Origin: an uncultured Microcaldota archaeon
Lineage (GTDB): Archaea > Micrarchaeota > Micrarchaeia > CAILAH01
Length of the DNA stretch: 45,314 nt
Assembly: GCA_903832205.1 (NCBI GenBank)
Contig: CAILAH010000063.1
Location: 1 to 45,314 of the forward strand
Direction: 5' to 3'
Of this stretch, positions 19,871-30,082 are shown one piece after another; position 1 is the stretch's first letter, and every line of letters starts with the position of its first letter. The translations under genes were made by a program, and so were the position numbers. A model generated the notes under the pieces. It searched no databases and was not told the DNA's origin. It worked only from the letters and a program-made list of their open reading frames with translations.

Positions 19871-19919
19871 AACCGTCAGATAATTAAGACCGTTTCCCCT
19901 TTATATACCTTTCTTTTGA

Positions 19920-20021
19920 CAGCCCAAGGGGGAGCGCCGCATTTTCGCAGCGGCGAAAAGCGACGCCTTTTGGCTCTCAGCCAAAAGAGCGCCCCCTTAG
20001 TCCGTCACCGCCCAAACCCCC
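19920..20021. repeat. R2 dispersed repeat, intergenic copy, 5 nt downstream of the argS stop
   Basis: CAGCCCAAGGGGGAGCGCC...GCGCCCCCTTAGTCCG..ACCGCCCAAACCCCC; about 99/102 identical by eye to 27802-27903; outer AAGGGGG/CCCCCTT stem with two inner hairpins. Confidence 0.92.
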
Positions 20022-20026
20022 CGTCA

Positions 20027-21877
20027 TTACATGTTACGTATGACCGGAATCCCAAGGATGTGCAGGCACGCCTCAAGGGCCTCGGCATATTTTTTCACGA
20101 GCCTTTTCCTGCTCTCGCTCACGCCCTTTTCCTCGCCGATAACCCTGCAGGCCGCATAAAACGAGTTGAATGCTGAGCACAGCTTTATTGCATAATCTGC
20201 CATGTTCTGCGGCGCATAGGTGTCCACCGCCCTGGCGCACACCTCGGGGAATTTTGCAATCTCCCGTATGAGCTGCAGCTCGCTTTTCTCCGTGAACACC
20301 AATTTTCCGTCCCAGTAATCGTCAATTGTTTCCTTGTCCAGGATGTGCACCGCGCGCGCATATGCGTACTGCAGGTAGGGGCCGCTGTCGCCCTCAAAGC
20401 TGAGCGCCTTTTCCCAGTCGAACACCAGCTCCTTCTCCGGGCCGAGCCTGATGAACGAGTACCTGATTGCGCTAATCCCGACAGCCTCGCTTATGCCTTT
20501 CTTCTCCTCCTCGCCGTAATCCCTGAACTTATCGCTGATGAGCGCGTGCGCCCTGCTCACACTCTCTTCCACCAGCTCATCCGCTGAGAATCCAATCCAA
20601 GTCCCCTTCCTGCCAGATAACTTTTTCCTATGAGAGGTCCTTTCCGCCTTGAGCGTCGCATGCCCGTATGAGATGTGCCTGTAATTGTTCGCCTCCTCTT
20701 TGAACCCGGCCATATCCAATGAAACTTTTATGACGTTCTGCGGGTACTCCTGCTCGACACCAATAATATTGACGACCTTTTTCGCATTGCTGAAGTTTGC
20801 CTGCTGCCCCTTTGCATTGCTCGTGAAAAGCAGCGCGCCGTTCTTCTGCATTGAGAACTTGTCAAACAGCAATTCATCCTTAATGATGCCCAATTTCCAC
20901 ATCTGGAACGCAATATCTTTTGCCGTATAGGTCGCAACGCCGTTCGCCCTCACCAGCACCTTGTCCGCATCCGTGAGATGCTTGAACATGGGGTGCCCGC
21001 TCAGCTCAATGATCTTGCACCCCGCATACTTGCTGTCCCCGCCGGCAGTTTTGAGTATTCCCTTCTTCTCCAGTAAGTCAAGCCCGTTCCTCATTAGCTT
21101 CGCGTGCACGATATCGCTTTCCCACACGAGCACGTTCTGAAATATGTTCAATCTCTGCAACGTAATCTTTTGCGCCTCAACGCACTGCACAGCCATCTCC
21201 CTGCCCATGCGCGATACCGTCTCGTCGCCCTCCTCCAGCTTCCTCATCAGCTCTTCCACTTCCCTCTTTACATCCGCGCTCTCCTCATACATCCTGGCGG
21301 CTTCAACATACTTCTCGCCGAGCCACATATCATATTTCTTCCCCTTCTCAACCGTGGCACCGCGCATGCACGCCCACAGGCTCTGTGCCACCTGCAGCCC
21401 CAGGTCGTCGATGTAGTCCATCCTCACCACATCAAAGCCGCCATAGTCAAGCAGGTTGGCAATGCAGTCGCCTATAATCCCATTCCTCAGATGCCCGATG
21501 TGCAGCGGCTTGTTCGGGTTAACAGAAGGGTACTCGACAATGACCTTAACGCCGTTCTTTGCAAACCTGTGCTCATACTTCCCTACAAAATCCGTATAGA
21601 ATTTTTCAGTGAGCGTGAAATTGATATAGCCGTTCGCATTCTTCATCGTATAATGCCCGCTCTCCAAATGCGGCATAATCTTCTCCGCAATCTCTGCGGG
21701 CTTTGCCTTTGCATCCTTTGCAACCCTGAACGCTATCCTGCACTCAACATCAACGCCCTCGACTCCCCCGTCCTGCACAAGGTTGAGCACCTCCTCCTTT
21801 GCAATCGCTATCCCGTACTCCTTCTCAAGCGCCACGCTTGCCTTCCCTGAAATTTCCTTCTTGATTTCAATAATCAT
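20027..21877 (-). CDS. argS: Arginyl-tRNA synthetase
   Basis: 'VEYPSVNPNKPLHIGHLRNGIIGDCIANLL' class I HIGH motif; 'SFEGDSGPYLQYAYARAVHIL'. Confidence 0.95.
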   Translation of the reverse strand: MIIEIKKEISGKASVALEKEYGIAIAKEEVLNLVQDGGVEGVDVECRIAFRVAKDAKAKPAEIAEKIMPHLESGHYTMKNANGYINFTLTEKFYTDFVGKYEHRFAKNGVKVIVEYPSVNPNKPLHIGHLRNGIIGDCIANLLDYGGFDVVRMDYIDDLGLQVAQSLWACMRGATVEKGKKYDMWLGEKYVEAARMYEESADVKREVEELMRKLEEGDETVSRMGREMAVQCVEAQKITLQRLNIFQNVLVWESDIVHAKLMRNGLDLLEKKGILKTAGGDSKYAGCKIIELSGHPMFKHLTDADKVLVRANGVATYTAKDIAFQMWKLGIIKDELLFDKFSMQKNGALLFTSNAKGQQANFSNAKKVVNIIGVEQEYPQNVIKVSLDMAGFKEEANNYRHISYGHATLKAERTSHRKKLSGRKGTWIGFSADELVEESVSRAHALISDKFRDYGEEEKKGISEAVGISAIRYSFIRLGPEKELVFDWEKALSFEGDSGPYLQYAYARAVHILDKETIDDYWDGKLVFTEKSELQLIREIAKFPEVCARAVDTYAPQNMADYAIKLCSAFNSFYAACRVIGEEKGVSESRKRLVKKYAEALEACLHILGIPVIRNM

Positions 21878-27564: not shown

Positions 27565-27646
27565 GCGAATATTTAAATTTGTTATCTACTCAAAGAACGT
27601 CATAGGGCTCCTGTAGTCTAGCCCGGTTAAGGACATTGGCCTCTCA

Positions 27647-27777
27647 AACACTGATGGAAGGGGGCACATCCCCCTTCCCTCGTGTGGCGTCAACCTATGG
27701 TTGACGACTTGCACAAACCTCGTTTGTGCAATGGTCTACACCTAACCCCCTGCGGGTTTGGGTTGTACTAAAGAGAA
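27647..27777 (+). other. tRNA-Glu intron 1 (position 37/38)
   Basis: Flanked by TTGGC/GCCGA stem, CTCT/AGAG central helix and 3-nt bulges. Confidence 0.88.
27649..27742 (+). repeat. R1-family repeat inside tRNA-Glu intron 1
   Basis: CACTGATGGAAGGGGG-CACAT-CCCCCTTCCCTCGTGTGG + two extra hairpins + TGGTCTACACC. Confidence 0.8.
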
Positions 27778-27798
27778 CGCCGAAAGCCCGGGTTCGAA

Positions 27799-27927
27799 TC
27801 TCAGCCCAAGGGGGAGCGCCGCATTTTCGCAGCGGCGAAAAGCGACACCTTTTGGCTCTCAGCCAAAAGAGCGCCCCCTTAGTCCGAGACCGCCCAAACC
27901 CCCAATGGTTTGGTGGTATTTCGAAAA
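27799..27927 (+). other. tRNA-Glu intron 2 (T-loop, position 59/60)
   Basis: CCGGG-TTCG-AA^T ... CGAA-AA^T-CCCGG; 4-bp central helix and two 3-nt bulges. Confidence 0.88.
27802..27903 (+). repeat. R2 dispersed repeat copy inside tRNA-Glu intron 2
   Basis: About 99/102 identical by eye to 19920-20021. Confidence 0.92.
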
Positions 27928-27987
27928 TCCCGGCAGGAGCTTTCTTATTCTTTTATTTCTTGCTGCAGATACCCTAGTGGTGAGCCT

Positions 27988-29719: not shown

Positions 29720-29804
29720 GCGAAAAACAAATATTAAAAAGCTATTACAACCGAAGATATATTCGTGCCGAGGTGGCAGAATCCGGTAATGCGTACGCCT
29801 TGAG

Positions 29805-29950
29805 TATGGGTGAGGGAGAAGCGTCTCCCTCTCCCATAAGACCCAACTCCCTCTCAAGAGGGTTTTGGACTCCTGTGGATTGAAATTCTCCTTCGTATGA
29901 GGGGGAGGTGTAGACCACACGAGGAGGGGGATACTTCCCCCTCATCAGTG
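29805..29950 (+). other. tRNA-Ser intron (position 37/38, ends +/-1-2 nt)
   Basis: Bounded by TACGC/GCGTA anticodon stem; TTGA/TCAG can form a central helix; internal TATGGG-T-GAGGGAGA...TCTCCCTC-T-CCCATA hairpin. Confidence 0.8.
29907..29950 (-). repeat. R1-family core repeat, reverse orientation, at the 3' end of the tRNA-Ser intron
   Basis: Reverse complement reads CACTGATGAGGGGGAAGTATCCCCCTCCTCGTGTGGTCTACACC. Confidence 0.8.
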
Positions 29951-29984
29951 AGCGTATGTCCGCAAGGACTCAGGAGTTCAAATC

Positions 29985-30082
29985 TCCTCCTCGGCGCTTT
30001 CTTTTTTAATTTTTCGCCTCGTCGGTTTTGCCTTCGGCAAAATCTCTGCAGCAAAGAGCTGCAGATTTCCTCCTCGGCGCTT
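29985..30082 (+). repeat. 15-bp direct repeat of the tRNA-Ser 3' end flanking a hairpin-rich 68-bp segment
   Basis: TCCTCCTCGGCGCTT at 29985-29999 and 30068-30082; between them TTTTGCC-TTCG-GCAAAA and CTGCAGC..GCTGCAG hairpins. Confidence 0.85.

Follow-up and report, generated by a model that had tools for sequence, protein, structure and literature searches.

The window, which is the whole stretch of 45,314 nucleotides analysed here, derives from contig C63 of the MAG G000 (81.8% complete, 1.11 Mb, 70 contigs) and carries a tRNA-Glu(CUC) gene interrupted twice. The gene lies on the forward strand and comprises (i) exon 1, nucleotides 1-37 (27607-27646); (ii) an anticodon-loop intron at 37/38 (27647-27777); (iii) exon 2, ending in TTCGAA, nucleotides 54-59 (27778-27798); (iv) a T-loop intron at 59/60 (27799-27927), which contains the repeated element R2 and is flanked by the T-stem CCGGG/CCCGG and the acceptor stem; and (v) exon 3, from nucleotide 60 to the discriminator (27928-27941). 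ARAGORN did not detect the interrupted gene as it stands in the window, and called tRNA-Glu(ctc) when exons 27607-27646, 27778-27798 and 27928-27941 were joined, which identifies the intervening segments as an anticodon-loop intron and a T-loop intron. Position 59/60 is a known non-canonical location of tRNA introns (PMC4090602).

R2 is present twice in the window, both times on the forward strand. The T-loop copy (27799-27903) extends from the P1 strand TCTC to the tail CCCCC, is one of five genomic copies, and matches the covariance model with 64.7 bits. The intergenic copy (19917-20022) is situated 4 nt past the stop of a minus-strand open reading frame of 616 aa (20027-21877) with an argS-like HIGH motif; the preliminary description had placed this copy between argS and an unrelated gene. 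That description had also estimated 27802-27903 and 19920-20021 to be about 99/102 identical, and alignment gives exactly this value (97% in the genome search); an E value of 4e-44, together with three further copies in the genome, excludes chance similarity. Folding reproduces the AAGGGGG/CCCCCTT stem enclosing two inner hairpins that had been proposed. The three mismatches comprise one loop base and two bases of the P1 3' strand, and the 5' strand carries matching changes just upstream of the repeat as first delimited (TCTC at 27799-27802 versus TGAC at 19917-19920), so the P1 differences are compensatory: TCTC pairs with GAGA (27886-27889) in the intron copy, and TGAC with GTCA in the intergenic one. 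The P2 strands, AAGGGGG (27808-27814) and CCCCCTT (27874-27880), were assigned, as was P1, by pairing and covariation analysis. The conserved right end CCGCCCAAACCCCC (27890-27903) is nearly invariant among copies, and within the intron, folding pairs it, as P3, with GGTTTGGTGG (27907-27916).

Across copies, the element displays a constant order of TNNC (P1), AGCCC, AAGGGGG (P2), a loop, CCCCCTT, AGTCCG with the second P1 strand, and the right end. The left end is the hairpin TNNC-AG-CCC-AAGGGGG...CCCCCTT-AGTCCG-GNNA and the right end is GCCCAAACCCCC, with variable inserts between the two, which are not inverted repeats of each other. The P2 loop ranges from a few nt to more than 100 nt, and inserts are also possible between the second P1 strand and the tail, as in two G000 copies (C49 and C14), where an extra hairpin block of ~53 nt precedes the tail, and in the G088 copies (~150 nt), the non-coding element measuring about 50-290 nt altogether. 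In G000 and G088, the copies have no sequence in common past the C-run, which is accordingly taken as the right end; in the G071 copies, the shared sequence extends to GCCAGTTGAC. The latter (L011, L014, L017, L019-L024) have 3' extensions that are modular and come in three shared versions, and their units look mosaic.

In the alignment of R2 copies, 29 of 51 positions are invariant. P1 and P2 are paired in 98% of cells, five pairs having changed on both sides, and their covariation score is 0.258 versus 0.076 after shuffling, with 0/500 shuffles reaching the real value. A P1 register shifted by one column was discarded, only 65.6% of cells being paired, and no other register fits. Near-identical copies within one genome can bear different yet complementary P1s (G000, G014); rapid compensatory change is the sole account that we can offer for this pattern, which we cannot explain further.

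R2 is dispersed well beyond the window. The MAG contains five copies, one of them at a contig end, and 8 of 99 relatives match the element, mostly through its 3' 30 nt alone. When 303 Micrarchaeota-class genomes were searched at E <= 0.01 with a covariance model derived from 25 copies, 28 of them yielded ~95 matches, the weakest being marginal; all copy counts derive from sequence searches of genome assemblies. The count of copies in the genome and its relatives that had been suggested as a check thus came out in favour of a dispersed family, and the situation regarded beforehand as refuting mobility, i.e., R2 confined to two loci or an assembly artefact at one of them, was not encountered. 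A degenerate pattern run against GTDB contigs recovered 32 stretches, all from Micrarchaeota, Ca. ainarchaeum or unnamed archaeal records. In viral contigs, the strict pattern had zero matches, and relaxed patterns returned seven stretches, weak, tail-less or GC-rich, and chance-like. The Rfam covariance models include no family matching R2 itself at gathering or relaxed thresholds; as regards group I introns, the window gave no Rfam match at gathering scores, and the group I covariance models matched none of 15 loci at E <= 1. No account of R2 was found in the literature searched, subscription journals being mostly beyond reach.

The T-loop is a recurrent site. Of the 19 T-loop insertions picked out among 88 distinct matches, 18 are retained, L024 being discarded as a false call; the 18 copies are spread over several different tRNAs and several families of the class. 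All of them are sense-oriented, a result of a script that tested sense orientation only. Two weaker R2-like matches were noted by eye, L160, which appears antisense in a T-loop intron, and L186 (G145, contig C39), apparently in a tRNA anticodon-loop intron. The 64 non-T-loop copies display the 5' flank consensus TTTCAAAT (frequencies T.53, T.52, T.58, C.41, A.58, A.64, A.50, T.64), resembling the universal T-loop GTTCRAAT; the frequencies count related copies too, without a formal background test.

In the T-loop copies, the 3' part of the intron retains the potential to pair with the exon. In 13 of the 18 copies, versus 1.95% of control positions, the 4 nt located three nucleotides ahead of C61 show full pairing with TTCR (nucleotides 54-57); four of the remaining copies pair when shifted (by eye), and L016 retains 3/4. 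In the tRNA-Glu, TTCGAA at 27920-27925 (forward strand) pairs with exon nucleotides 54-59 in a relaxed BHB, the TTCGAA/TTCGAA helix showing a 3-nt bulge and the 5' bulge side opening into a multibranch loop. The BHB criterion is met by the 27799-27927 insert in relaxed form only, and its excision in vivo is only inferred. The inference rests on the pairing and on the broad specificity of archaeal splicing endonucleases, including that of ARMAN-2, as reported in PMC12397907. GGTTT, the partner of the tail, lies downstream in 12 of the 18 T-loop copies; the GGTTTG partner is common to T-loop copies and mostly missing from intergenic ones.

Introns also occur at the T-loop site without R2. The syntenic tRNA-Glu of G001, from the same genus, has a T-loop intron that lacks the element, with both neighbour genes kept (by eye); G003 and G004 also have T-loop introns without R2, and G002 has no T-loop intron. 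Within genus g19, one tRNA has an intact T-loop in G108, short T-loop introns in G111 and G113, an R2-less intron in G115, and R2-type introns in G110 and G114. The preliminary description held the T-loop intron to be built around R2, a view contradicted by orthologous tRNAs whose intron in this position has no R2 (G001, G003 and G004; G111, G113 and G115); in the comparison of tRNA-Glu orthologues, which the description had proposed, the syntenic G001 intron lacks R2. Given that T-loop introns exist without it, R2 was most simply inserted at the 5' edge, sparing the 3' pairing partner. We infer that R2 most likely moved into an intron that already existed and was probably BHB-spliced, the reverse order, namely loss of R2, not being excluded. 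R2 shares its site with archaeal BHB introns at 59/60, where the R2-less introns show the conserved domain to be dispensable, and it looks like a passenger in the intron.

All copies were screened for direct repeats in which the left copy terminates at the element or no more than a few nt from it. Eleven of about 80 copies possess such repeats, which measure 17-53 nt, are mostly identical and score >= 15; about 370 random flank pairings never scored above 12; most R2 copies have no direct repeat. The right repeat copy begins 9-98 nt past the tail, and the intervening filler is unexplained and atypical for a target-site duplication. The native sequence that follows the right repeat copy has no P1 strand, which makes P1 part of the insert. 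P1 itself as a target-site duplication (G071 ends TGAC...TTGAC) was ruled out on the same ground. An empty-site query made of the joined flanks of L141 gave partial matches only, in three sister genomes, and no exact pre-insertion sequence for this intergenic copy.

These observations bear on whether R2 is instead primarily a functional structured RNA domain (for example, protein-binding, guide or small ribozyme) that acts in the tRNA intron or in the RNA excised from it and spread by ordinary duplication, its dispersal as DNA being secondary. The 29 invariant positions, the strong P1 covariation and the pairing of the tail with the conserved GGTTTG of the T-loop copies would suit such a domain, and the absence of an Rfam match would permit a new RNA family; its patchy presence in 28/303 genomes, the position-specific TTTCAAAT flank of non-T-loop copies, the direct repeats at the left end and the orthologous T-loop introns without R2 point the other way, and we consider this explanation unlikely.

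Five of the repeat cases involve a tRNA and share the layout of tRNA fragment, R2, filler and intact gene (L057, L178, L075, L179, L015), the repeat beginning at the mature tRNA end in four of them (by eye). A simple target-site duplication does not predict such a start, and an RNA or att-type route consequently stays open. In the former, excised intron RNA would be reverse-spliced or reverse-transcribed into new sites. Besides the repeats starting at mature tRNA ends, the known intron positions among the insertion sites and the variable 3' filler, reminiscent of 3' transduction, agree with this route; nevertheless, RVT_1 is found in only 2/16 carriers, and the copies are not cut to exact intron ends, most intergenic copies being devoid of the T-loop 3' segment, which renders it quite improbable. 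That copies move as DNA is our inference, and the choice between a DNA and an RNA route is not settled. In the att-type explanation, the tyrosine integrase of tRNA-targeting integrative elements duplicated the tRNA ends, and R2 is an att-proximal sequence left behind. The five layouts named above are compatible with it, as is a precedent from Caldiarchaeum, where the tRNA-Thr likewise occurs as a fragment plus an intact copy and integration of mobile DNA was proposed, although the 1.8-kb sequence there is predicted to encode a recombinase and R2 is short and non-coding (PMC3293823). The presence of the same repeats where no tRNA was called (L141, L176, L163, L175), the viral contigs, devoid of strict-pattern matches and with weak, chance-like relaxed ones, and the lack of an integrase in six carriers, G000 among them, leave this explanation little credit.

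The survey of enzymes in carriers, all draft genomes, comprised three families, none of which is common to all carriers, and disclosed no autonomous partner. The tyrosine integrase occurs in 9/16 carriers and is absent in G000, G071, G088, G140, G156 and G063; RVT_1 occurs in two of 16, one being G000; and the Y1 transposase (PF01797) occurs in 9/24 and is missing in 15/24, including G000. The RVT_1 domain of G000 (C26:45301-45948, E 1.7e-21) lies in a 442-aa open frame. An imperfect end hairpin, a fixed target flank, small size and intergenic dispersal are features that R2 shares with IS200/IS605- or REP/RAYT-type elements moved by a Y1 HUH transposase, but the distribution of PF01797 and the presence of direct repeats of 17-53 nt, which to our knowledge are not expected for these families, make this affiliation scarcely tenable.

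MITEs and REP elements are small, non-coding, dispersed, hairpin-forming sequences between genes. R2 resembles them as a small, non-coding, dispersed hairpin in intergenic gaps, and differs from them by the lack of terminal inverted repeats joining its ends, the lack of a detected partner transposase and its tropism for the tRNA T-loop. On balance, we regard it as probable that R2 belongs to a Micrarchaeota family of small, non-autonomous mobile elements, MITE/REP-like hairpins for whose movement an as yet unidentified enzyme is responsible. Movement of the element, suggested in the preliminary description, is borne out by the dispersed copies, the target motif, the duplication-like direct repeats and the syntenic R2-less intron. 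In the mechanism that we propose, the enzyme, inferred to be supplied in trans, would recognise the R2 end hairpin, and insertion takes place in one register after TTTCAAA, a preference that makes the universal T-loop GTTCRAAT a prime target. Within T-loops, R2 occupies the 5' edge of the 59/60 intron, whose 3' end still pairs with nucleotides 54-57; a tRNA splicing endonuclease of relaxed specificity should then excise the whole insert, which would allow the tRNA to tolerate R2. Outside tRNA genes, the element persists in gaps between genes.

Near-identical sequences in introns of different archaeal tRNAs have been described before, their transposition mechanism being called unknown in a 2014 review (PMC4090602). 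R2 shows the same distribution among introns of different tRNAs, and differs in being a defined unit, found also outside tRNA genes, with ends, a target motif and repeats. How archaeal tRNA genes acquire non-canonical introns is still open, and R2 provides a specific means by which sequence could spread into them: its occurrence inside and outside tRNA genes, a target motif that matches the T-loop sequence and the duplication-like repeats render intron invasion testable.

A second dispersed element of like architecture, R1 (27649-27750, forward strand), sits in the anticodon-loop intron of the same tRNA-Glu and at six more places in G000 (on contigs C24, C10, C38 and C57), as well as in G003. 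Its layout is CAC-TGATGG-AAGGGGG..CCCCCTT..GTG followed by the tail CCTAACCCCC. Matches to R1 (CACTGATGG-AGGGGG..CCCCCT-CCCTCGTGTGGTCTACACCTAYCCCCC) at L103-L108 and L113-L115 are located within anticodon-loop introns, next to tRNAs and in intergenic positions; by eye, L108 also carries an 11-nt tRNA-end repeat on its left side. A further element, R3 (TATGGGCAGGGGG..CCCCCTTCCCATAAGACCCAATCCCCC), lies within tRNA introns at L106 and L117, the latter with a tandem pair. By eye, R1, R2 and R3 have in common the P1 stem, a P2 of G-run and C-run, and the C-run end. One may speculate, as a doubtful extension of the preferred reading, that R2 represents an undescribed class of mobile element which inserts at TTTCAAA|T under the guidance of its folded end hairpin, has spliced safe havens in T-loop introns and moves without any of the known families of transposase, integrase or reverse transcriptase, the related R1 and R3 behaving likewise in anticodon-loop introns.

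Elsewhere in the window, a tRNA-Thr(tgt) containing a long intron is called at 29767-29997 when ARAGORN is run in intron mode. At L118 and L119 of G002, ~80 nt separate an intact tRNA from a second copy of the 3' tRNA end, which begins at the T-loop AT; the site thus seems to be a target for another repeated sequence as well.
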